DNA from: a virus
IMG/VR virus record: IMGVR_UViG_3300049846_001677
Location: 1-37,477 of that record
Direction: 5' to 3' (one strand)
Length of the DNA: 37,477 bases
Shown here: positions 4,009 to 30,686 of the stretch, piece by piece
Numbering within the stretch: the first letter of the stretch is position 1
Layout of the letters: each line of letters starts with the position of its first letter
Notes under the pieces: generated by a model
The model's database searches: none
What the model was told of the DNA's origin: nothing
What the model saw: only the letters and a program-made list of their open reading frames with translations
Translations under genes and position numbers: made by a program

Positions 4009-5411
4009 TACTCCACCGCGCTCCTTTCGATGTACACGGTCACACCCGTGATGGTGGCAGACGACGGGATGTTGAACCCGAAGTTGGTCAGTTTCAGGTA
4101 GTGCGAGGTCCCCACGCCCGCGGTAGCGTAGTTGTCGTTGGATGAGACCGCGTTCGCCGTGCTCGCCCACGTGACCGTTCCGACCGCGCTGTCGTCGGCC
4201 GTGGTTGAAGCCTGCTTGATGGACGATGGCTCCGAAGCGGAGGACAGGACAACGACGGCTTCGTAGGTCGCGTCAGTGACTGACTGATGCATATGGGGCG
4301 TGATAGCCTGCGTAGGTCGCCCAAGCGCCGGGTTGAACGAGATGAGCGCGCCGCGCGTGTTGGTGTAGTCGTTCACGGTGGCGAAGAACTGCTTACCCGC
4401 TGGCGCAATCTGCATCGTCCGCCCCCAGCCACGAGAGAGGTCTCCGTCCAGACCCCCCTCGGCTTCGAGCCCCACAAACTGCCAGGTGTCCCCGGAGTAT
4501 TCGATGAGACCCATCTTGTGCGGTGCGTAGACTCGGCCTTGGATGACGTTCATCCCCATGAAGTTGGAGTCGTCGGCAATACCCACCAGGTCGCGGAGGA
4601 CGTTCACGGCGTTCAGGGTTTCATCGAAGGAGAAGATGCCGTCCTGCTTGCCGATGAGCAGGATACGGCCATAGACCATGAGGTCGGTGATGTTGAAGCC
4701 GGAGTCGCCGACGGTGTAGTCCGCACCCCAGTTGCCGCCCGTCGTCGGGGTGACGGAGCACTTCGAAATGACGTTGGTGTTCCCGCGGACAAGCTCCTCG
4801 CGCCAGACTTCGAAGCAGAGGGCCTCCTTGCCCGCTGGCCCACTGGCCCACGAGTCCGTACCGCCCGGCGTCAACTCCTGCCAGTTGGTTGCGGACCCGC
4901 CGGCGCCGATGCGCACGGGGAAGTATCCCTTGCCGCGGAAAGCGACAGGCCGCCCACCGATGACATTGGCCGCCCCCAAGTCCTTCGTGTCTGCCACCGC
5001 CCATGTCGAAGATGGCGTCGCGTCGGGGACGTACTTCTTGATGTACCGGCCGCGGGCGATATAGAGGAAGCCGCCAAGGTAGAGCGCCCAGCCACGGGAG
5101 TCGGTGGAGGTGAAGGACGCACCGCTCGCGTAGGCGGGCCATGTGACGGCCTTGCCGGGCGTGCTCAAGTCCCAACCGTTCGCCCAGTCGTAGGTGCCGT
5201 CGGGGCCTTGCCAGGTGAAGCCGCCGCCCTTGGACATGTCGGCAAAGCGCATGGTGACTTCCTGCTGCGCGTCCACGTCCTGGTCGGTGACAAGCTGTAC
5301 GGACATCGCGACTTGACCGCGGCTGTCAGTGCGCAATAGGTACCGCTGGCTGTTGAGCCGGAGGACGGATTCGGTCGAGCGCGGGGAACCGGAAGCGAAC
5401 GCGTTAGCCAT
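4008..5411 (-). CDS. Beta-propeller-like tail protein ending in a half beta-sandwich domain
   Basis: 467 aa from ATG 5411, which overlaps the upstream TGA (TGATG) and has GAGG eight bases upstream; GTG codons at 5417 and 5414 are alternatives. The body has repeated short motifs such as GWALYLGGFLYIARG, DLMVYGRILLIGKQDGIFSF and MGMNVIQGRVYAPHKMGLIEY, as in beta-propellers built from repeated four-strand blades. The last 70 residues (VTWASTANAVSSNDNYATA, then YLKLTNFGFNIPSSATITGV and YIERSAVE) are the first half of a well-known tail beta-sandwich. The second half opens the gene at 1614-2615. The domain is therefore cut between strands by the intervening insertion. A tail tube or host-contact role is inferred. 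Confidence 0.65.
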   Translation of the reverse strand: MANAFASGSPRSTESVLRLNSQRYLLRTDSRGQVAMSVQLVTDQDVDAQQEVTMRFADMSKGGGFTWQGPDGTYDWANGWDLSTPGKAVTWPAYASGASFTSTDSRGWALYLGGFLYIARGRYIKKYVPDATPSSTWAVADTKDLGAANVIGGRPVAFRGKGYFPVRIGAGGSATNWQELTPGGTDSWASGPAGKEALCFEVWREELVRGNTNVISKCSVTPTTGGNWGADYTVGDSGFNITDLMVYGRILLIGKQDGIFSFDETLNAVNVLRDLVGIADDSNFMGMNVIQGRVYAPHKMGLIEYSGDTWQFVGLEAEGGLDGDLSRGWGRTMQIAPAGKQFFATVNDYTNTRGALISFNPALGRPTQAITPHMHQSVTDATYEAVVVLSSASEPSSIKQASTTADDSAVGTVTWASTANAVSSNDNYATAGVGTSHYLKLTNFGFNIPSSATITGVTVYIERSAVE

Positions 5412-6493
5412 CACCACAACCTCGCGCGCGTACTTGGCTCAAGCTCGTCACGTGACGCGAGGAAGTTGGTTTCCGCGTGCGCCAGCTCGGTCGCGTACTT
5501 CCCAGTGAGGGCGTTCATCATCCGGTACGCCTCAGCGACGATAGCCCGGACACACGCCTCATACGGTGCCCGCGTAGCGTCGGTATCGAGGTAGAGCGCG
5601 TCACTGGCGACCAGCGCCTCGACGATGACCGTCTCGGTCGTGGTTGGCGCGAAGTTGAAGCGCACCTTCAGGGTCTCTGGGCCGTTGCCTTCAAGCCACC
5701 AGTGATACCCGCTCTTGCTGGCGTCCTGGTCGTAGACAACTCCATTGGTGTCCGTGGTGCGGATGAAGACGCGGGTGATGTTCCGGGAGCCAAGGTCGTC
5801 GAGATGGGGGGCGAGGGAGAACGCCATCGTCTCATCGTCGCCCGGCCCAAGGTCGAGTTGGTCAAGGAATCGGACACGGGAGAGGCCCTGCCGGATGGCC
5901 CTGTCCCATGAGTAGGCGATGCCCGGCTGGTCTACGGGCGGCATCAGCGCGTACGCCTGGTACTCTTCGCTCGCCACCGGGGCATTGGTGTAGTCGCGCA
6001 CTGTGAGCGCGCCGGTCGCAACAGTGAACCCCGAGCGAGCCACGCGCCGCGTCTTGTCCCCGGCTGCCGCAGCGTCAGGGCGGTACAGCCACGACCCTTC
6101 CATGAAGTCGGTGTCTACCCCTTGGTCCACAAGAGAAGAGTCCACCAGGGTCGTCGTAGAGCCCCCAGTCGCGGTTGCCTTGAAGCCCACGCCTGCACGG
6201 ATGGCCGCGTCGATGCGAAGGTCGCGCATGGTAATGCCGACCGTCTGGAACGGTGGCCCCTGTTCACTCTCAAGGGGGCCGCTGGCCGTGTAGTAGCTGA
6301 TGCGGTACCAGGAGCGCGGCGTGCCCGAAGCGTCTGAGACGCTGTAATTCTCCGTGCCGGCCACGACCGCGACGGTGTCCACGAGGGTACCGGAGGTGGA
6401 TGTCGGGGACGAATGCCGGTAGAGGCGAAACGACGTGTAAGTCGCCAGCGCCGTGGCGGTGTCCTCGATATAGACGCGTACCGTATTCGCCAT
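5411..6493 (-). CDS. Tail or head-tail structural protein with FN3-like N-terminus
   Basis: 360 aa. Residues 1-85 (VRVYIEDTATALATYTSFRLYRHS ... YSVSDASGTPRSWYRISYYTA) resemble a fibronectin type III-like fold in which values are unpacked from a sequence of strands. The middle is beta-rich with a long Asp/Gly segment (LDQLDLGPGDDETMAFSLAP). The C-terminal 60 residues are helical (YEACVRAIVAEAYRMMNALTG, then ELAHAETNFLASRDELEP). The helical tail and position between capsid-side and tail genes suggest a protein of the neck or tail hub. The family is not certain. Its stop overlaps the start of the next tail gene. Confidence 0.55.
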   Translation of the reverse strand: MANTVRVYIEDTATALATYTSFRLYRHSSPTSTSGTLVDTVAVVAGTENYSVSDASGTPRSWYRISYYTASGPLESEQGPPFQTVGITMRDLRIDAAIRAGVGFKATATGGSTTTLVDSSLVDQGVDTDFMEGSWLYRPDAAAAGDKTRRVARSGFTVATGALTVRDYTNAPVASEEYQAYALMPPVDQPGIAYSWDRAIRQGLSRVRFLDQLDLGPGDDETMAFSLAPHLDDLGSRNITRVFIRTTDTNGVVYDQDASKSGYHWWLEGNGPETLKVRFNFAPTTTETVIVEALVASDALYLDTDATRAPYEACVRAIVAEAYRMMNALTGKYATELAHAETNFLASRDELEPSTRARLW

Positions 6494-6510
6494 GATTCGT
6501 CCTCAGTGTA

Positions 6511-8448
6511 TCAGTTTCTTGATGAGCGCCCCTTTGGGGGCCTGTTTATGGACGAACGGCCTTGCGGCTTTACGTCCGACGTAGACGACTGCCCGGTTGG
6601 CAGGTTGATGTTGCGGGCAGAGCCGGACGGCCCAGCATCGATGCCAGAACTCTGGCCGGTAGGCCCGCGCTGTTGCCCCGCCGCGTTCCCTTCGGACTGC
6701 CAGCCCATCGGCCACGGTGGATGAAAGATGTGGGCCTCAAGGACTTCGACAAGCGCGGAGTATGTGAACCCCCAGTGCAACGAACGTCGCCCACGGGGGG
6801 GCATCCACTCAATCGCGTACGGTGGCGGGACATTGAGCGCGAAAAGCTCCGCAGCGGTGAAGCTGCGCGCCTCGCCAACGCGGATGCCACGGCGCCCCTT
6901 TGGCGGCATCCACCCAATCTCGTAAAGAGGCGGCTGGATAAGGCCGACAATCTCCGCGACCGTGAAGCCATGCGTCTCTCCGCCGCGCATGCGACGGCGT
7001 GGGCGCGGTGGCATCCAATCGACTTCATGCGGTGGTGGCTGGACGAGGCCCACAATCTCGTTGGCCGTAAGCCCGCGGGTAAAGTCCTGTGGGATTCGCG
7101 CCACTCGCCTGACTGGCATACCCAGCATTGGCTGCGGGAAGAAAGTCTCGACCGCTTCCGTAAGCGGGATAGTGAGCCCGCTCGGAAGGACAAGGTCGAT
7201 ACGCGGACGCACCAGCGGCCGCGGCTGGGCGATGAGCAACTGCCCGATTGGGACTTGCTCGGGGAGGTAAATGGGGAAGTTTAGGGCGAACCCTAACGCT
7301 CCGGTATTTCGCCGGGCTGGGGGCATCCTGTCCGGTTGCGCGCTGAGACCCGGCGGGAGGGCCGATAGCACGATGCTCGCCGCATCGGGGACGGGTTTGA
7401 GGTGCGGTAAACCTGGTACGCGCCGCGTGGTGGATGGAAGTGACGACGAGCCGGGCGGGTACTCCAGGATAGGGAGCCATGTCGGGTCGACCTGCGGCTG
7501 CCAGACACGCCGTGGCGGGAAGCGGTCAGGGTAGAGTTCTCGGCCATCCGGCAGGGACTCCGGTGGTGGCGTCTCACTGAGCGCGAGGAACGAACCGCTG
7601 ATATCCGTGATGCCGTAGCGGCGACGGACTAGACGGAGGGTGTCCTCTTGTAGGCCAGGCGGGAGCGCTTCAACCGCGACCTCTTCGAGGATGGCGCGGG
7701 ATGGGACAACGCTGCCCGTGTTGAGTGGGGGGCGTCGCGGTGGCGAGGCTACGGGGATGGCACTCCCGCCCGCCGGGTAGAACTGGAAGAACGCGAGACC
7801 GACACGGCCGGCCTTGGCTGTCGTGCAGTCCGACCGCGTCGTCTGCGCCCCTGAGCCACCGGTCGCCCACGTCAACTCGACCGATGGGGAGTTAGCAACG
7901 GAACCCTCGGATGTCTCTAAGTACCCCGATGTAACCGGCGCCCACGGATTGGCGGACGTATCATCATCGACCGCGAAACCACCGATGGCGAGTTCGCCTG
8001 TCGCGGCAGGCGTGACGCTTGGGGACGTGTGTTGCGTCCCGCTAGCAGTGTCCGCCGCGTTTTGGGTATCAAGGACAATGCGCCCGTAGCCCGCGCTGTG
8101 GTAGTAAGCCCCACAGGCGAGCGCCATGGCGCTGTTGCCACCTGCCTGGTTTACCGTGAAGGTGGAGCCCTCGGTGCCATCCGCGATGCGGTAGAGGCCC
8201 TGCATCGCCATGCCGGTGCCGCCCGCGGTAAACAGCGTCTGGAACCCGGTACACGAAAATGTTCGGCCAGCGTTTACGGAACCGCAGATGATGACTAGCA
8301 GGTCGCCAGGGGTAATAGAGTTGGGCTTGTCTACGACAAGGCTAGAAGCGTTTGTGCCCTGGGCCGCAGATGTGCCTGTCCCGCGCTGCCTCCAGCCGGT
8401 CGGGATTGGGAGCAAGGGGACAATGTTTCGCGTGCTTGGCGCAGCCAT
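6511..8448 (-). CDS. Large tail/appendage protein with (W/R)MPPxxRR repeats
   Basis: 645 aa. Residues 1-228 form a beta-rich domain with the motif SLVVDKPNSITPGDLLVIICGS, shared with the IPT/TIG tail gene at 3097-4008. From about residue 300 the protein is Pro/Arg-rich and holds degenerate repeats centred on (R/W)(M/F)PPxxRR: PDRFPPRRVW (307-316), PDRMPPARRN (372-381), DWMPPRPRRR (477-486), GWMPPKGRRG (512-521) and EWMPPRGRRS (547-556). The last three are regular 35-residue units that each begin FT/LT..E(I/L). Residues 587-645 are a low-complexity Gly/Ser/Gln/Arg/Asn tail. A minor virion or tail-appendage role is inferred from the N-terminal domain and context. The repeat function is unknown; binding to a polyanion is possible. 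Confidence 0.6.
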   Translation of the reverse strand: MAAPSTRNIVPLLPIPTGWRQRGTGTSAAQGTNASSLVVDKPNSITPGDLLVIICGSVNAGRTFSCTGFQTLFTAGGTGMAMQGLYRIADGTEGSTFTVNQAGGNSAMALACGAYYHSAGYGRIVLDTQNAADTASGTQHTSPSVTPAATGELAIGGFAVDDDTSANPWAPVTSGYLETSEGSVANSPSVELTWATGGSGAQTTRSDCTTAKAGRVGLAFFQFYPAGGSAIPVASPPRRPPLNTGSVVPSRAILEEVAVEALPPGLQEDTLRLVRRRYGITDISGSFLALSETPPPESLPDGRELYPDRFPPRRVWQPQVDPTWLPILEYPPGSSSLPSTTRRVPGLPHLKPVPDAASIVLSALPPGLSAQPDRMPPARRNTGALGFALNFPIYLPEQVPIGQLLIAQPRPLVRPRIDLVLPSGLTIPLTEAVETFFPQPMLGMPVRRVARIPQDFTRGLTANEIVGLVQPPPHEVDWMPPRPRRRMRGGETHGFTVAEIVGLIQPPLYEIGWMPPKGRRGIRVGEARSFTAAELFALNVPPPYAIEWMPPRGRRSLHWGFTYSALVEVLEAHIFHPPWPMGWQSEGNAAGQQRGPTGQSSGIDAGPSGSARNINLPTGQSSTSDVKPQGRSSINRPPKGRSSRN

Positions 8449-10716: not shown

Positions 10717-11036
10717 TAGTGAATCCTCCGCGCATCGCGCTTCAGTGGGTCGAACAGGATTTCGCCGTCTGGCCCGCGAAGCAAGTAGGGTTCGTCGCCC
10801 TTAAACTTCAGCGCCAGTTCGATGGATTCCTGGAAAGGGTTGCATTCCGCGCGGCAGCCGCCTGAGTCACAGACGTAGGCGTCGCACTTCTGGCAGTACC
10901 CTCGCTCCCGAGTACGCTCGGGGTTGAGGATGACGACACGGTCGCAGTGGCAGCAGGTCATCGTGTGGACTTCCATGCGCTGCCCTCCTACAAAGGCGTT
11001 GTCGATAAGCAGTGTGCTCTTTCCGCCGCGCGGCAT
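10716..11036 (-). CDS. Zinc-binding phage protein in the head block
   Basis: 106 aa. Residues 27-66 hold a treble-clef-like Cys cluster: TCCHCDRVVILNPERTRERG, YCQKCDAYVCDSGGC and RAECNP, with up to nine Cys. The C-terminus LLRGPDGEILFDPLKRDARR is conserved in appearance among similar phage proteins that accompany capsid genes. It probably binds one or two zinc ions. The function is unknown; the position between small beta proteins of the head/tail block suggests an assembly role rather than a transcription factor. Confidence 0.65.
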   Translation of the reverse strand: MPRGGKSTLLIDNAFVGGQRMEVHTMTCCHCDRVVILNPERTRERGYCQKCDAYVCDSGGCRAECNPFQESIELALKFKGDEPYLLRGPDGEILFDPLKRDARRIH

Positions 11037-11050
11037 GCTCCCCCTCCTGG

Positions 11051-11512
11051 TTAGGCGGCTGTCACCGGGTTGCCCTGCTCAAGCGGGATATACCAGAGGT
11101 CCCACTTGACCTGGCCGGTGTTGGAGGCGGCACACGAGAGGTTCAGGGTGCCGGGCTCCAGGACGATGCGCCGGGCGGGGAACGGAGCCGCAGCCCCAGC
11201 CCCCACAAGCGCATCGGTGAAGGTGCCGGTGACGCCGTAGAGCTGACCCACGGCGTCACCGGTGATATCGAGGACCGCGCAGATGTCCACGTCCGCAGAC
11301 GCGCCGGCCGTGGCATCAAGCAGGAGCTTGGTGTTGTTGGCCTGCGTCTGAATGACGGTCGTGACTTCCCCGATGATACCCGTCACAAGGATGCGGACGG
11401 GAATCGTGAAGAGCGCGTGGTTGGTCGTCTGGGGGAGGTTGGCCGTCGCCCTCGACACCTTGATGCCGAGCATGTCGTTGGCCGCGTTCTGCCCAAGTCG
11501 GGTGACTCGCAT
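11051..11512 (-). CDS. Head/tail accessory protein
   Basis: 153 aa. It is beta-rich with alternating hydrophobic strands (ALFTIPVRILVTGIIGEVTTVI, DVDICAVLDITGDAVGQLYGV) and ends NTGQVKWDLWYIPLEQG, a WDLwY(I/V)PL motif seen in small capsid-linked phage proteins. It sits two genes after the major capsid gene. It may be a capsid decoration or neck protein. No Cys motif or membrane segment is visible. Assignment is from pattern and position. Confidence 0.55.
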   Translation of the reverse strand: MRVTRLGQNAANDMLGIKVSRATANLPQTTNHALFTIPVRILVTGIIGEVTTVIQTQANNTKLLLDATAGASADVDICAVLDITGDAVGQLYGVTGTFTDALVGAGAAAPFPARRIVLEPGTLNLSCAASNTGQVKWDLWYIPLEQGNPVTAA

Positions 11513-11932: not shown

Positions 11933-12808
11933 CTAGTAGTACGCGCCGGCGATGACTTCGGCAGCGACGAGGTTCTCCGGCCGGGTGACTTTCGCACCGT
12001 AGACGTGGAGTCCCTTGACCGCGGCACCGAAGCGCTGCTCGGGCTTGTAGGCTTCCATCTCCTGGAGCTGCTCGGCGAAGGTGACTGCGCCGTTGTAGCC
12101 GCCAAGGATGACGGTCGAGGACGATGCACCGGAGGGCAGGTTGTTCGACTTGTAGATGGTGAAGTCTGCAAGCCGCCCAATCGCGTCGCCGCGGGCCACA
12201 TCCCGGTTTGCCGGGGTGCCGAACGAGACGAAGCGGGAGTCCAGCCGGAGGTGCGCCTCGAAGAACGGTGGGACGACAAGCCACCGGCCGCCGCGTGGCG
12301 TGTTCGCCACGTCCAGGCGTTCCATCAGCCGGACGGTGATACCGTACGCGTCGATTTCACCAACACCCTGACCGATGGTCAGCGGGGTGCCGTTGGTGAT
12401 GTCGTTGCCGGTACCGTCCACGCCGGTGTTGATGGTCGTGGCCAAGAACACGTCGATGGTCTCGGAGATGCCCCAAGACGCTTCCTTCATGGCATCGGCG
12501 CGGATGTCGGCCCGCATCTGGGCCTTGTCCACGTCGTCGATGTAGAAGTGGAAGACTTTGCCCTGGTCAATCACCAGCGCCATGTCCGCGAGGTTCAGCG
12601 TCTCGGCGGCCGTGATGTTGGTGTTGCGGGTGTAGTTGCTGATGGTGATGCGCCCAATGGTGTTGATGCGCACCGAAGAGCCGAAGCCCTTGATTTCGCC
12701 CTCGTACTTCCGGTTGACGACGTTGGGCTGGGCGAAGATGTGCGTGTCGTTCAGGTTCTCCTGAAGGTCAGCGGCCCAAATCGTCGGGATGAACGACTCG
12801 ATAGTCAT
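11933..12808 (-). CDS. Major capsid protein (HK97-fold, P22-coat-like group)
   Basis: 291 aa. The N-terminus SFIPTIWAADLQENLNDTHIF, the block VNRKYEGEIKGFGSSVRINT, and IDQGKVFHFYIDDVDKAQM are hallmark motifs of a widespread phage coat family with the HK97 fold, in which they form the N-arm, E-loop and P-domain. The centre GGRWLVVPPFFEAHLRLDSRF and the end YGAKVTRPENLVAAEVI also fit. About 290 residues is usual for the family. It follows the scaffold gene by 23 bases and precedes a probable decoration gene. It assembles the icosahedral shell together with the scaffold and portal. Confidence is high. Confidence 0.9.
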   Translation of the reverse strand: MTIESFIPTIWAADLQENLNDTHIFAQPNVVNRKYEGEIKGFGSSVRINTIGRITISNYTRNTNITAAETLNLADMALVIDQGKVFHFYIDDVDKAQMRADIRADAMKEASWGISETIDVFLATTINTGVDGTGNDITNGTPLTIGQGVGEIDAYGITVRLMERLDVANTPRGGRWLVVPPFFEAHLRLDSRFVSFGTPANRDVARGDAIGRLADFTIYKSNNLPSGASSSTVILGGYNGAVTFAEQLQEMEAYKPEQRFGAAVKGLHVYGAKVTRPENLVAAEVIAGAYY

Positions 12809-23346: not shown

Positions 23347-24936
23347 TCACCATCGCACTCCCGAGTAGGCCGTCGTCTGGCCCTGGCTCGAATTGAGTAT
23401 CAGGAAGTGTAGGCCCAGAACGCCAAGGCGCCGCGCGTCCATGGCGTCGGCATGGTTCGCCACCGGCGTATCCGTTGCGTACTCGTCTTTGCTGTTTGGG
23501 TCACGCCGCTTGGCCCACCGGTAGCTTGGGAATTCGGCGATGCTGTCCACACACGCCGCGTTGATGGTGAACTGCCCGGACGCCAGGTACCCCCGGAAGG
23601 TGTCGATACCCTCGCCTCGAGCCCAGTTGCCCTTGCGTATCGGCCAGCGATGGCGCTGCGGGTCTTTGCAATCGAGTCCCTCGTCCAACCTGCACATCGC
23701 CCCGAGCGTCGCTATCAAGGTCGGCTGTATCGGGTCGGCCTCAATGAAGTCGATGAGGGCTATCGCGTCTTGCGGCCGGAGGATGTCCGCGTGAATCTCC
23801 TGAGCGCTTGGCGTCCGCCGCTGATACCACTCGGCGTATTGATGGATGCGCCATTGCCGCGTCTCCACATCCGGCCACGCCCCAAGGAACACAAACGCCG
23901 TAGGGTCGCCACCACCAAGGTCGTAGCCCACCACACGATAGGTGCACGCTTCCCAAGGCACCGGGTCGTCCTTGACCACGTGCGTCGCCTTACTGAACTC
24001 GGGGTACACGAGACCCTCGCGCCCCGTGAACGCCTCGTCCGGAGTGCTTGGGTACCAGGCGCTGAACGCGGCGCCGTCCATGTTCGGATATCGTCGCTTC
24101 TCCTCCTCGAGCCATGCTCCATCACGCCCTGGCCGCACGTCCCAAGGGAGGAATACCGGCATCAAGGACTTCGGGCTCAGCGCCGGCAGCGTCCACACGC
24201 CGGATTCATCGATAGCCCAGTCGTCGCGGTCGCCCACGCTCGCGGTCCAAAGGTCATAGAACGCACCGTTAGGCCCAAGGCTGGGGTTCGTCGTGCTCGA
24301 CACGATGGCTTGGCCGCCCGCGCTCAAGGTCGGCCCCACGTGCTCCCAGTTTGTTTCGGCGTACGCGTGCATGGCGAACTCATCGAACACGGCAGCGTCG
24401 AACGTGTAGGACGTGCCGCCCGTCTGCGTCGCTGCGAATATCTGAATCAAGCCCTTGCCCGAAAACTCTGTGATGGGAAGCGCCTTCCGGTACGTGACGC
24501 GCTGCTCCTCCGGAAGCGAGTCGACCATCGCCAGCATGCGGCGCTCGAGCTCGTGCTTGGCCGCTTCCTCGTTCAGGCTCCAGTAGCCTACACGCCAGCC
24601 ATCAAGCACGGCCCTACGGTCGGCGTAGAGTCCCAAGAGCCAAGACATTCCCAACTGACGGGCCTTGAGGATGATGACGCTCTTGCCCTGGTCGAGCAGT
24701 GCAGCTACGAAGCGCTGGTAGGGGAACATCTCGAAGGGGATAAGCTCCGGGTCCGGCGGGTCGCTCAGTATGCGCACGTGCCCGCTCAGTGCTTCTGTCG
24801 TCTCCCAGATGGCCCTACGCGCGGCAGACTTCCGCCGCTTGGCATCCAGTGCCGCCTGTAGAAGTGCAGGATTGGCAAGCAACGTGCGCTCGAGGTCGCG
24901 CACGCGGAACGACGTGGGCCTAAGCGGGCGACTCAT
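23347..24936 (-). CDS. terL: Terminase large subunit
   Basis: 529 aa from ATG 24936, which overlaps the upstream stop (ATGA). ATPase motifs: Walker A-like KARQLGMS at 91-98, Walker B AAVFDEFA with Asp185-Glu186, and coupling motif SSTTNP at 213-218. Nuclease (RNase H-like) motifs: VVGYDLGGGDPT with Asp339 and Asp344, and a C-terminal NHADAMDARR with Asp497 and Asp500. It drives DNA packaging through the portal and cuts the concatemer. Codons 477-487 lie in a 29-bp stretch repeated exactly at 35440-35468 on the same DNA strand orientation. Confidence 0.92.
   Translation of the reverse strand: MSRPLRPTSFRVRDLERTLLANPALLQAALDAKRRKSAARRAIWETTEALSGHVRILSDPPDPELIPFEMFPYQRFVAALLDQGKSVIILKARQLGMSWLLGLYADRRAVLDGWRVGYWSLNEEAAKHELERRMLAMVDSLPEEQRVTYRKALPITEFSGKGLIQIFAATQTGGTSYTFDAAVFDEFAMHAYAETNWEHVGPTLSAGGQAIVSSTTNPSLGPNGAFYDLWTASVGDRDDWAIDESGVWTLPALSPKSLMPVFLPWDVRPGRDGAWLEEEKRRYPNMDGAAFSAWYPSTPDEAFTGREGLVYPEFSKATHVVKDDPVPWEACTYRVVGYDLGGGDPTAFVFLGAWPDVETRQWRIHQYAEWYQRRTPSAQEIHADILRPQDAIALIDFIEADPIQPTLIATLGAMCRLDEGLDCKDPQRHRWPIRKGNWARGEGIDTFRGYLASGQFTINAACVDSIAEFPSYRWAKRRDPNSKDEYATDTPVANHADAMDARRLGVLGLHFLILNSSQGQTTAYSGVRW
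23480..23508. repeat. 29-bp exact direct repeat, copy 1 (inside terL)
   Basis: Positions 23480-23508 are identical over 29 bases to 35440-35468 (both begin TACTCGTCTTTG and end TCACGCCG). The flanking bases differ on both sides. Here the minus strand encodes RRDPNSKDEY of the terminase nuclease domain, so this is the likely source copy. Confidence 0.95.
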
Positions 24937-25121
24937 GCATACCAACGGGTCACAGCGTTGTAGGCCGCGGTAACCGCGGGGTTGCCGATGTACTCCAGGA
25001 GCGCAGCATCCGCCCTTAGGTGCGCGTCCTCCGTGTCACTGAGTTCCGCCGCCTCTGAGAGAGCCCGCAGCAAGTGCAGTAGGTCGCCGGGCCTTGGTGG
25101 CCGAACTGGGGTCGCGCTCAT
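24933..25121 (-). CDS. Small conserved protein upstream of terminase
   Basis: 62 aa (helical: GDLLHLLRALSEAAELSDTE, then DAALLEYIGNPAVTAAYNAV, ending RWYA). It overlaps the terL start by four bases. Short helical proteins of this pattern precede terL in other phages. They may assist the terminase, but no function is known. It is too short and lacks the HTH expected of a small terminase. Confidence 0.6.
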   Translation of the reverse strand: MSATPVRPPRPGDLLHLLRALSEAAELSDTEDAHLRADAALLEYIGNPAVTAAYNAVTRWYA

Positions 25122-25883: not shown

Positions 25884-26318
25884 CTACTCGGCCGTTTCGC
25901 CTACTTCGCGGTACTCACCCTCAATAGACTGCGCACGCTCGGCTAGGGCCTCTAGGCGGTCCTCTGAGAGCATCTGAATGGCCAAGGCGAGGATTTCGGC
26001 GCTCGCGAGTGCATTCGAGCCCGGCGTGTAGCCCGGATGGCCGGTCTGAGCCAGCCATTTCAGCGCTACGTATGGGTCTGTGCATGCCGCTCGATAGGCT
26101 GCGAGCTCGGGGCCGGCGGCTGCTTTCCCGCGTGCAAGCTCACATTTGCGGGCGAATTCGGGGTCACGCTCCCAATATGTGGCCGTTTCAGTGACCACGC
26201 CCGCCTTATTGGCAGCCCCACGCTGAGAGTAGCCGAGTGCCAGATTCTCTAGGTAGGCGGCCTGGCACGCGTCATGCTCAGCACGTTTCATGCGCCCACG
26301 GTCTAAGAGTGACCCCAT
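25884..26318 (-). CDS. HTH protein, probable terminase small subunit
   Basis: 144 aa from ATG 26318; GTG 26336 and ATG 26291 are alternatives, none with a strong Shine-Dalgarno. Residues 10-50 form a homeodomain-like HTH typical of small terminases: AAYLENLALGYSQRGAANKA, GVVTETATYWERDPEFARKC, with the ...DPEFARK... signature. The next helices (ALKWLAQTGHPGYTP) fit the oligomerisation core. It is the first gene of the virion operon, two genes before terL. It would recognise packaging DNA and load TerL. A transcription factor with the same HTH cannot be excluded. Confidence 0.65.
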   Translation of the reverse strand: MGSLLDRGRMKRAEHDACQAAYLENLALGYSQRGAANKAGVVTETATYWERDPEFARKCELARGKAAAGPELAAYRAACTDPYVALKWLAQTGHPGYTPGSNALASAEILALAIQMLSEDRLEALAERAQSIEGEYREVGETAE

Positions 26319-26360
26319 GGTCACGTATGGTAGCACGCCTGCAATTACGACCCTACCGCA

Positions 26361-26492: not shown

Positions 26493-26651
26493 CCCGGAGG
26501 GCACCGGGCGCAGGGCCACCAGGTGGCGCGCTGTAACAGGCGCGCGGATGCACTCGCGGAGGCTACCGGGAATCGACCGGTGCGATTGAGGCGAACCTAC
26601 AGCGGGCGTACACGTAACCAATCGTGCGGCGCGGCGATATGCGGGAGCCTC
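26493..26651 (+). ncRNA. Structured leader RNA upstream of the ribozyme
   Basis: The leader has consecutive hairpins: CCCGG/CCGGG (26493-26508), GCCAC/GTGGC (26515-26527), then CGCGCTG/CAG-g-CGCG (26527-26544). They are followed by an outer helix GAGGCT (26559-26564) with AGCCTC (26646-26651). That helix encloses ACCGG/CCGGT (26565-26581, seven-base loop) and a seven-pair helix GCGATTG/CAATCGT (26582-26588 with 26619-26625), a three-way-junction layout. No gene with a good Shine-Dalgarno fits this stretch. The fold is by eye, without energy calculation. It could protect the mRNA, influence transcription or hold a ligand-binding domain. Confidence 0.45.
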
Positions 26652-26656
26652 GATAC

Positions 26657-26715
26657 CTAGCGGTCGCCGGGCAGTGACGAGCCCGGCCTGATGAGAGCGT
26701 CAACGAAACCGCAGG
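26657..26715 (+). ncRNA. Hammerhead ribozyme (type III topology) in the early leader
   Basis: All core elements of a hammerhead are present in order. Stem III: GCGGT (26660-26664) with ACCGC (26708-26712), plus two outer pairs past a mismatch. Cleavage site GTC, cut expected between 26665 and 26666. Stem I: GCCGGGC (26666-26672) with GCCCGGC (26681-26687), seven pairs and loop AGTGACGA. CTGATGA at 26688-26694; G26695-C26704 as the only stem II pair; then GAAA at 26705-26708. Loop I TGACG (26675-26679) is perfectly complementary to loop II CGTCA (26698-26702), a five-pair kissing contact that replaces a long stem II. The Shine-Dalgarno AGGAG (26713-26717) of the first gene abuts stem III. Known biology: hammerheads self-cleave to a 5'-OH and 2',3'-cyclic phosphate. 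Confidence 0.85.
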
Positions 26716-26725
26716 AGACAGAGAG

Positions 26726-26989
26726 ATGGCGAAGAAAATCCGGCACGCGTGCATCAATCCGGCATGGCGCCTGGAACGCGCGACGACACGCGCTGACGGC
26801 TCGACTGACTGGTTTTGGCTGGAGGTTACATCTCGAAGCGTAGATGAAATCCTGGACGCGCTTAAAACGTATCGGAACCATGCAGCGGTCCGGCACGCCA
26901 CATATCGCGCGGTTCCGACATGCGAGGAGCACGGCGACCGCTTCCGCTGCCCAATCGCCACCATCGATACGGATGGCAATCGCATCTAA
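26726..26989 (+). CDS. First early gene, unknown protein
   Basis: 87 aa (MAKKIRHACINPAWRLERAT...). AGGAG eight bases before ATG is adjacent to the hammerhead, so ribozyme folding or cleavage could govern translation. The sequence is mixed alpha/beta, basic at the N-terminus, with a His/Cys pattern near the end (CEEHGDRFRC). No family is recognised. As the first gene after a ribozyme leader it may be a host-takeover or regulatory protein, but nothing in the sequence shows this. Confidence 0.75.
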   Translation: MAKKIRHACINPAWRLERATTRADGSTDWFWLEVTSRSVDEILDALKTYRNHAAVRHATYRAVPTCEEHGDRFRCPIATIDTDGNRI

Positions 26990-27414: not shown

Positions 27415-27459
27415 AACCCGTGCGGGGGCTTCGGCCCCGTCCCTGAGAAAGGGAGCGAC
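27403..27459 (+). ncRNA. 57-nt RNA motif, copy B (overlaps upstream stop codon)
   Basis: P1 GTCGC (27403-27407) with GCGAC (27455-27459). The conserved strand at 27408-27424 is identical to copy A. P3 GGGGC-TTCG-GCCCC (27425-27438) carries a UUCG tetraloop. P4 TCCCT-GAGAA-AGGGA (27440-27454). Compared with copy A, P4 pairs change on both strands (TCCTC/GAGGA to TCCCT/AGGGA), which supports the fold. Confidence 0.8.
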
Positions 27460-27471
27460 GACAACTAGGCG

Positions 27472-27494
27472 GCCCGGCGCAATCCGGGCGGAGG
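27472..27494 (+). promoter_or_regulatory. Hairpin/Shine-Dalgarno leader, copy 1
   Basis: GCCCGG (27472-27477) pairs with CCGGGC (27484-27489) around loop CGCAAT. GGAGG (27490-27494) follows directly and ATG is nine bases further. The same arrangement is found at 27720-27742 with different, compensating stem bases and the identical loop. The hairpin ends one base before the ribosome site, so a protein or RNA binding the loop could control translation. Confidence 0.65.
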
Positions 27495-27503
27495 TTAGAA
27501 CAG

Positions 27504-27692: not shown

Positions 27693-27719
27693 CCCACCAC
27701 ACACGACGACCAGTAGGCG

Positions 27720-27742
27720 ACCTGGCGCAATCCAGGTGGAGG
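27720..27742 (+). promoter_or_regulatory. Hairpin/Shine-Dalgarno leader, copy 2
   Basis: ACCTGG (27720-27725) pairs with CCAGGT (27732-27737) around the same loop CGCAAT, followed by GGAGG (27738-27742) and TTAGAACG before ATG 27751. Two of the six stem pairs differ from copy 1, and both differences are compensated on the other strand. TAGGCG precedes both copies. Confidence 0.65.
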
Positions 27743-27750
27743 TTAGAACG

Positions 27751-29226: not shown

Positions 29227-29344
29227 TGGCTCGCTTCAATTCTATGGTGGTTGGCCACACTCGATGGCTCGCTCGCTCCGATTGGAGTCGGTGCAGCATT
29301 TTGGCTCGCTTGTCCACTTTGGGGGCCGTTCTGGCGTCTGGCTT
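29227..29344 (+). repeat. Repeat array 1 (37-38 bp period) downstream of the transposase-like gene
   Basis: The core TGGCTCGCT occurs at 29227, 29265 and 29302, with a degenerate copy TGGCTT at 29339, so starts are 38, 37 and 37 bases apart. Another partial copy may lie near 29193. A weaker second box, roughly CTATGGTGG or CTTTGGGGG, follows about 15 bases after each core start. The intervening bases differ. The last copy overlaps the stop of the minus-strand gene. The period is close to 3.5 helical turns. Confidence 0.8.
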
Positions 29345-30461
29345 AGGTCATCCGCCCTCCTTTCAGCGGAGTGTAGCCCGGCGGCGGGGCGTAGTCGTGG
29401 TGGCCGCCGAACTCAATCACCCACGGCTGCGGAACGGGTCGGCCGGTCCGCAACTCCCACGTCACCGTGTGCCAGTCTGAGAGGAAGCGCTTGACCGCGT
29501 ACCGCTTGGCGCGGGCGTGGATGTGGGCAGGGGGGAGCTTGCCTTGGGCGTACGCCTTGTACGCGTCCGTCCCTTTGTTCCACTTTTTGTCTTCGAGTGC
29601 GCGTGCCGCCGCTGGCGCAAGCTCACCCTCTTCATTCCGTTCGACCTCCATCATCTTCCGCTCGGCGTAAAGCGCACCGTAGTACGCATCCTGCGACCCG
29701 CTCACCTTGACGAACGACTCGCCAATCTTCCAACACAGCATCTTGAGGGACTTGTTCCACGGGATGCGGGCCAAGTACGCCTGGAGGCTGGCCTTCGTCA
29801 CCGGCCCTCCGGTCGGGCCTTCCTTCGTGCGCGGACCGGCACCGCGGATGATGCTGCGGAACGACCGGTTAGTGAGCTTCGCGACCGCCAGCAACTGGGG
29901 GACGGACAGGCCGAAGTCCTCCGGGATGTCGCCCATGATGTCCGCCAGCTTCTTTTCCTCCATCTCGGTCATCTGGCCAGGAAGGTCGCCGTTGAAGTCC
30001 TCATCATAGATGTACGGGATGAGCGCCAGCGCCTTCTCCTTCCCCAGCCACTTGATGTGCGGGTCGAGCCCGGCGAAGCGGAAGATGTGCGACACCGTCG
30101 GGCACTTCTCGATGTCGATGTGCGCGCTCAGGCCGCCCGAGAGGATGGGGCCGATGCCTTTCTGGGCCATCGCCCACTCGGCCTCAGGCTGCACCTCCGC
30201 CCAACGCGTGATGGCCTTCGCCATCTGCTTCTCCAGCACCTCCGCCTGGACGGTGAGGAAGTCCAGCGTGTCGGCCGCGTTGTCGTCGGATGCCTGCCGG
30301 ACCGCGCGAAGGCGGTTCTCGGCGATGATGCGGATGGCCTGGAAGTCGTAGTAAGTGTCCACCAGGTGCCTGGCCTCGCGTGGGCCGAGCAACGCTCCGG
30401 CCTTCGCAAGGTCACGGTTCAGCCGCTGTACGGGTTCGAGGTCAAGGTCAATGGCATCCAA
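29343..30461 (-). CDS. IS110-transposase C-terminal-like (Transposase_20) phage protein
   Basis: 372 aa from TTG 30461, which has GGAGAGAG seven bases upstream; longer starts would run into the repeats. The N-terminus is helical (residues 1-95). Then come GIGPILSGGLSAHIDIEKC (102-120) and HIFRFAGLDPHIKWLG (125-140), which match the helix-hairpin-helix and GLDP motifs of IS110-family C-terminal domains. The C-terminus has HIHARAKRYAVKRFLSDWH. The N-terminal DEDD (RuvC-like) domain of true IS110 transposases is absent, and the catalytic Ser expected after GLDP is not seen (IKWLG). It is therefore probably a DNA-binding protein rather than a transposase. Repeat arrays flank it on both sides. Confidence 0.7.
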   Translation of the reverse strand: MDAIDLDLEPVQRLNRDLAKAGALLGPREARHLVDTYYDFQAIRIIAENRLRAVRQASDDNAADTLDFLTVQAEVLEKQMAKAITRWAEVQPEAEWAMAQKGIGPILSGGLSAHIDIEKCPTVSHIFRFAGLDPHIKWLGKEKALALIPYIYDEDFNGDLPGQMTEMEEKKLADIMGDIPEDFGLSVPQLLAVAKLTNRSFRSIIRGAGPRTKEGPTGGPVTKASLQAYLARIPWNKSLKMLCWKIGESFVKVSGSQDAYYGALYAERKMMEVERNEEGELAPAAARALEDKKWNKGTDAYKAYAQGKLPPAHIHARAKRYAVKRFLSDWHTVTWELRTGRPVPQPWVIEFGGHHDYAPPPGYTPLKGGRMT

Positions 30462-30492
30462 AGGTTCTCTCTCCTTCGTGGGGTGTGCGCTT

Positions 30493-30686
30493 TGGCGCTC
30501 GGGTTGTATGGGGTTAGTCGCCGTGCATGGCTCGCTCAAGCTTCATGGGATGTCGTCTATTTCAATGGCTCGCTCGCTCATCTTGGTGGCAGTTCCCGGT
30601 GTATGGCTCGCTCGAGACCTATGGGGGCAACCGGACAGGATGGCTCGCTCTTCACTATTGAGGGTCGTCGCGGCGCGTGGCTTGCG
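30493..30686 (+). repeat. Repeat array 2 (37-38 bp period) upstream of the transposase-like gene
   Basis: TGGCTCGCT starts at 30528, 30566, 30604 and 30641. Degenerate copies are TGGCGCTCG at 30493 and TGGCTTGCG at 30678. Spacings are 35, 38, 38, 37, 37. A second box resembling CTATGGGGG or TCTTGGTGG follows about 15 bases after each core start, as in array 1. It fills the whole gap between the gene's TTG start and the end of the next minus-strand gene, with the same orientation as array 1. Confidence 0.85.

Follow-up and report, generated by a model that had tools for sequence, protein, structure and literature searches.

What is the compact RNA that lies directly in front of the first rightward gene of the uncultivated virus record IMGVR_UViG_3300049846_001677, and what purpose does it serve there? 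The window analysed here is the whole record of 37,477 bases. A leftward strand block carries the structural genes, including those for the terminase small subunit (25884-26336) and large subunit (23347-24945), and a divergent rightward block begins at 26726 and, further to the right, encodes an Erf-like annealing protein. The RNA is located on the + strand inside the gap of ~390 bases that separates the two blocks; no convincing co-oriented gene was found on its 5' side, and a promoter-like site was sought upstream of it and none was found. The gene behind it, which the sequence-only reading had called the first early gene, is indeed the first gene of the rightward block, opposite the terminase genes, and its early expression would be an interpretation of this layout. 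The 87-aa product of this gene has no relative in Pfam, PHROGs or PDB sequences. No close kin of the window phage was found by a nucleotide search of phages or by comparison of the downstream protein and the terminase with viral contigs, and the terminase gave only distant, partial matches among cultured phages. A transposase-like gene (29343-30539, - strand; PHROG 4285, E 2e-42) breaks into the rightward block.

All elements of a hammerhead ribozyme are present between 26660 and 26712 (+), in type III order and at the very positions that the sequence-only reading had given for them. These elements and their immediate surroundings are as follows.

26656-26658 (+), CCU able to lengthen stem III by pairing with the AGG of the Shine-Dalgarno (SD) sequence in the minimum-energy fold, with A26659 bulged
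26660-26664 (+), 5' strand of stem III, GCGGU, pairing with 26708-26712 (5 bp; U16.1 is 26664)
26663-26665 (+), GUC cleavage triplet, with the predicted cut between 26665 and 26666
26666-26672/26681-26687 (+), stem I of 7 bp, GCCGGGC/GCCCGGC, forming the hairpin 26666-26687
26673-26680 (+), loop I, AGUGACGA, 8 nt in the sequence
26675-26679 (+), kissing half of loop I, UGACG, a perfect complement of 26698-26702
26688-26694 (+), catalytic core CUGAUGA, invariant across relatives apart from N7
26695-26704 (+), one-pair stem II, G26695-C26704 (G10.1-C11.1), which is G-C in 18 of 18 aligned members
26696-26703 (+), loop II, AGCGUCAA, 8 nt in the sequence
26698-26702 (+), kissing half of loop II, CGUCA, pairing with UGACG of loop I (5 bp)
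26705-26712 (+), GAAA (26705-26708) and 3' strand of stem III, ACCGC (26708-26712), from the sequence and the alignment of relatives
26713-26717 (+), SD sequence AGGAG, abutting stem III without a gap
26726-26989 (+), downstream gene of 87 aa, with its ATG at 26726

The core CUGANGA, the GAAA and an NUH triplet occur in the correct order, the chain enters and exits via stem III, and stems I and II are closed by loops. The chain topology is thus that of a type III hammerhead, and the testable features of hammerheads are all present with two exceptions: the Rfam score is insufficient, and stem II is not a multi-pair helix but consists of the invariant G10.1-C11.1 pair only, both in the window and in the aligned relatives. 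Judged from its sequence, the RNA is almost certainly a type III hammerhead in which stem II has been cut to this single pair and a pseudoknot substitutes for the remainder. Assignment of the window RNA to type II was considered and rejected; the position corresponding to A14 is a U upstream of the cleavage site, and the intact GAAA lies downstream. Immediately before the cut site, at 26651-26665 (+), the string C-GAUA-CC-UAGC-GGUC looks like the part of a type II hammerhead that carries GAAA and the hairpin of stem III, apart from one altered core base, and we judge this CGAUACC-UAGC-GGUC segment to be a chance resemblance, a relic or a trace of circular permutation.

The window holds a single hammerhead, and the standard models do not report it. 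In the scan with Rfam 15, none of the hammerhead families (RF00008, RF00163 and RF02275-RF02277) gave a gathering-level match, and the best sub-threshold match, to Hammerhead_II (RF02276), scored 23.8 bits where the cut-off is 37. A match to the c-di-GMP-II-GCG riboswitch (19.2 bits, cut-off 47.9) was dismissed as chance. Pattern scans of viral contigs, in contrast, yielded about 20 distinct relatives of the same layout in unrelated phages, and nearly all of these were also recovered by scans that made no demand on loop complementarity, the exception being L115/L123. The sequence-only reading had proposed a covariance search as a check: the window falls below the Rfam cut-off, and a covariance model built only from the relatives in other phages, with the window left out, recognises the RNA with a score of 49.8 bits (E 5.5e-14) and makes no second match anywhere in the window. 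When the window was randomised 150 times with a first-order Markov model, the structural scan gave no match on either strand, and it gave none in 3.8 Mb of reversed loci. The 5-bp kissing complement taken alone has a chance rate of about 1.4%.

Covariation was assessed in an alignment of 18 members from different phage contigs, the window included. In this alignment 96.1% of the pair cells are formed, compared with 70.0% after shuffling, and changes on both sides were seen at 11 of the 17 pairs. All seven pairs of stem I covary (99% of cells paired); in stem III double changes occur at three of the five pairs, namely the outer three, and the remaining two never vary, so that 97-99% of cells are paired in stems I and III. 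The cleavage triplet is GUC in every aligned relative but one, which has GUU. Several candidates were removed from the family: the recurrent hits whose gap measures 37 nt (L004-L006 among them) and the hits starting 'aaaataaccgaagtc' do not have a stem I in common and were regarded as chance coding sequence, and L089 and L095, which have the same sequence, are ordinary type II hammerheads, as shown for L089 by Rfam.

Outside these viral contigs, 84,980 genomes of bacteria and archaea were scanned for the consensus loop contact, with a pattern that would overlook window-type loops such as UGACG/CGUCA; of the 23 matches, none has mismatch-free flanking hammerhead stems. The absence of such stems hints that the carriers are mainly lytic phages. 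Covariance model R1, run without a positive control on 398 genomes from a single phylum, gave no match. At the nucleotide level, the relatives L052, L117 and L057 had no match among cultured phages, and L116 matched only Pelagibacter phages, distantly and in the terminase.

The loop I-loop II contact, which the sequence-only reading had proposed as compensation for a one-pair stem II, is borne out by covariation in the relatives. Watson-Crick pairing of at least 4 bp between the two loops is found in 19 of 24 members, compared with 5.1 expected when loop II is shuffled, and loops exchanged between members never reached the observed pairing total in 2000 trials, own loops always being better. 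The contact of the relatives can be written UGGY/RCCA; at its variable position, 13 of 19 sequences, each read in its own register, have U-A, the other 6 have C-G, and none is mismatched. The window contact carries an additional double change, A-U for G-C. Because the loop pairing covaries and G10.1-C11.1 is invariant, the stem II that had been described as degenerate is a real architecture: the count of one pair was correct, and the word degenerate is better replaced by a description in which a pseudoknot helix takes the place of stem II (PMC11300833). In the aligned sequences, the role of stem II appears to have been taken over by a loop I-loop II pseudoknot of 4-6 bp. At the level of sequence comparison, the architecture, its conservation and its covariation can be taken as shown.

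This architecture shares parts with several known hammerheads and is identical to none of them. The PK hammerhead, which is reportedly credited to Weinberg et al. 2015, offers one comparison. In its crystal structure (PDB 8YDC), a pseudoknot replaces helix II save for G10.1-C11.1, and the published ribozyme strand reads CUGAUGA-G-ACUGGA-C-GAAA (PMC11300833). The window RNA likewise has a stem II consisting of G10.1-C11.1 with a pseudoknot helix adjoining helix I in its role, but in the PK hammerhead the partner loop is carried on a separate helix IV hairpin, which an A-rich strand connects to helix I. The window RNA was thus rejected as a hammerhead of the 8YDC type, given that it has no helix IV and loop I itself supplies the partner.

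With the type II pseudoknot hammerhead (RF02276; PMC3088659), the window RNA has in common the core, a stem I of the 7-bp class, a weak stem II, the phage context, and a UGG-type loop I that pairs with the segment directly after the first base of stem II (the UGG/CCA module). They differ in that the pseudoknot segment of the window-type RNA runs back, as a closed loop II, into C11.1-GAAA and leaves stem III as the open end, which amounts to a circular permutation. Both types coexist within one phage in L117 and L112. The plant satellite type III hammerheads (sTRSV; Hammerhead_3) share the open end of stem III, the contact between loops I and II and the core, but their stem II comprises several pairs and their loops touch through non-Watson-Crick contacts (PMC6155905), whereas the window-type RNA has a one-pair stem II and a Watson-Crick contact helix. 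The window-type members are below the Rfam cut-off or unreported, except L109, which has an extra upstream GAAA and also scores as type II (37.3 bits). They may constitute an uncatalogued hammerhead sub-family, an assignment that is limited by being set apart from the types of Perreault 2011 and Weinberg 2015 through their descriptions rather than alignments. Such a sub-family, which escapes the current Rfam models at their thresholds and replaces stem II without the extra hairpin of the PK type, would be spread over many unrelated phages.

Among published ribozymes, both a type II hammerhead (PMC3088659) and that of 8YDC (PMC11300833) function with a one-pair stem II. A type II hammerhead with a one-pair stem II and a pseudoknot cleaves at >1.2 per min at 0.5 mM Mg2+, and compensatory changes restore activity to its pseudoknot mutants; in the same work by Perreault et al., 4 of 18 consensus-like hammerheads were inactive (PMC3088659).

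The adjacency of the ribozyme to the SD sequence, noted in the sequence-only reading, proved to be strongly conserved. An SD sequence, a start codon and an open frame follow the GAAA by 8-24 nt in 18 of 20 relatives, compared with 2.1% of random positions on the same strand, and the start codon lies 12-19 nt from the ribozyme in 17 of 21 cases. The genes behind the relatives mostly differ from one another and are mostly of no assigned function, although that of L007 resembles an AAA+ ATPase by eye. Because the downstream genes are mostly different, the ribozyme is a modular element tied to the ribosome site: conservation applies to the spacing from this site, not to the gene family. The open frame that starts 19 nt after the GAAA of L116 appears by eye to encode a polynucleotide-kinase-like P-loop kinase with a GAAGSGKS motif, and such a gene would be of interest beside an RNA that is predicted to generate 5'-hydroxyl ends. 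The near-fixed distance to the SD sequence, itself read from the genomes, makes the purpose of phage hammerheads, long an open question, directly testable.

The explanation that we consider probable as a whole comprises the identity given above, a constitutive cut made during transcription and an insulator-like 5' end. The ribozyme would cut the leader transcript after C26665, co-transcriptionally and constitutively, and cleavage would strip the promoter-dependent 5' leader. The resulting mRNA would have a defined 5'-hydroxyl end, with the hairpin of stem I and the pseudoknot as its first structures, and the SD sequence and the start codon would follow this new end after ~47 and ~60 nt, respectively. 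Where a relative has several ribozymes, the same cleavage would trim a polycistronic phage RNA into units that each start beside an SD sequence. What is inferred here is that the RNA is catalytic, that it acts constitutively and what cleavage does to the mRNA. In a halovirus, a hammerhead lies 13 nt before a start codon, and its cut site coincides with the mapped mRNA 5' end within three nucleotides (PMC3088659).

An effect on mRNA stability or insulation is suggested by analogy with RiboJ, a synthetic part that increases protein output two- to tenfold and the transcript about twofold in E. coli (PMC6206723). In both cases a hammerhead lies between promoter and SD sequence, and cleavage sets, or in the phage would set, the 5' end of the mRNA; a shared role may be supposed. 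RiboJ was, however, engineered from the sTRSV hammerhead and differs from the window-type RNA in stem II and loop architecture. On this analogy we lean slightly towards a ribozyme that provides a stable, context-independent translation start and is a natural counterpart of RiboJ. If cleavage does set the mRNA 5' end, its stability and its independence of context, then this synthetic-biology part has a precedent in nature.

It is also conceivable, if rather unlikely, that the ribozyme serves to separate neighbouring messages for the sake of their own stability or stoichiometry, with the effect on the 5' end being secondary. Hammerheads do occur in successive gaps in several of the relatives: L117 contains six in a row over ~2.8 kb (5323-8117, +), of which one is a type III lacking stem II and five are type II; L112 has four in all and L109 three, and L060 and L037 also contain several. 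In L090 (-), a type-P5 twister and a hammerhead of the window's kind (12149-12219 and 12447-12504) lie within ~350 bases. Prophage hammerheads that flank genes, including in clusters, have been published (PMC3088659). The window ribozyme, however, resides in a divergent gap with no convincing co-oriented upstream gene, so that there is nothing for it to separate, and cutting between messages does not require the tight spacing to the downstream SD sequence.

The sequence-only reading had instead proposed a timer, in which cleavage frees or traps the SD sequence. In this scheme, which appears unlikely, the uncut 5' strand of stem III masks the SD sequence and is released upon cleavage, resulting in delayed translation. 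In the window, the CCU at 26656-26658 does pair with the AGG of the SD sequence in the minimum-energy fold, and the SD accessibility predicted by partition-function folding of the uncut and cut RNA rises from 0.38 to 0.52; in L057, L083, L052 and L034 the SD sequence is partly within stem III. But this CCU pairing is not general among the relatives, stem III overlaps the SD sequence in only 8 of 21 members, and mean accessibility over the 21 members barely changes, from 0.50 to 0.55 (0.49 to 0.49 without the ribozyme constraint). The masking strand amounts to merely 5 + 3 pairs, and hardly any delay would be expected from a hammerhead that cuts rapidly and constitutively. Concealment of the SD sequence as a mechanism of the whole family, and with it the timer as a general role, is rejected by these overlap counts and accessibility means, and masking may contribute in some members.

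An RNA that cuts constitutively is also preferred to one whose activity is regulated. Without tertiary contacts, the minimum-energy fold of the window RNA is not the active one: the UGAUG of the core pairs with CGUCA, and this alternative is predicted at -26.3 kcal/mol compared with -20.9 kcal/mol for the hammerhead secondary structure. This predicted minimum might be a physiological off state that is shifted by a protein, a ligand or temperature, but we regard such a switch as improbable. The competing helix is specific to the CGUCA of the window and is not conserved, most relatives reading ACCA or GCCA there; as bare duplexes, UGACG-CGUCA (-4.5) is stronger than UGAUG-CGUCA (-2.7); and no conserved aptamer-like domain is present. 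That the RNA is a chance resemblance or a decayed, functionless ribozyme is hardly credible: the score under the Rfam cut-off and the failure to find a relative of the window phage that preserves a copy are outweighed by the lack of any equally good structure in randomised windows, the leave-one-out E-value, the conserved SD position and the fully intact core bases.

The hammerhead is followed, in the same operon, by other structured leaders. An undescribed cloverleaf RNA of 57-59 nt, which folds with single-nucleotide linkers, was found in each of the three intergenic gaps that come next, and homologues were found in the unrelated contig L217.

26992-27048, 27403-27459 and 27942-28000 (+), cloverleaf RNAs of the window
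10742-10812, 11419-11492 and 12404-12477 (+), cloverleaf homologues of contig L217, one with an exact core and two divergent

The layout consists of P1, P2 and P4 of 5 bp each and P3 of 5-12 bp. Pairing in P1, P2 and P4 is 100% over the six copies, and each of the five P1 pairs has changed on both sides; P2 is an invariant GCGUGAAACCCGUGC in four copies and varies in the other two with pairing kept. Every copy sits in the gap ahead of a gene start, the L217 copies 3-15 nt before open frames. Neither Rfam nor ARAGORN gave a match to the cloverleaf in the window, and Rfam gave none in L217. Because the slots of the cloverleaf correspond to those that additional hammerheads occupy in other phages, it is a candidate processing element, tRNA-like signal or self-cleaving RNA. 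A broader scheme, in which uncultivated phages use interchangeable RNA devices at each gene start to make the 5' ends of their messages and the window combines a hammerhead with a self-cleaving or tRNA-like cloverleaf, is possible but doubtful.

A second repeated leader was observed at 27456-27501 and 27704-27749 (+). It consists of a hairpin whose arms differ between the two copies (CCCGG-CGCAAU-CCGGG and CCUGG-CGCAAU-CCAGG), followed by GGAGGUUAGAAC, and it precedes near-identical frame starts, ATGGCGACGTACACGACG and ATGGCAACCTACACGACG.
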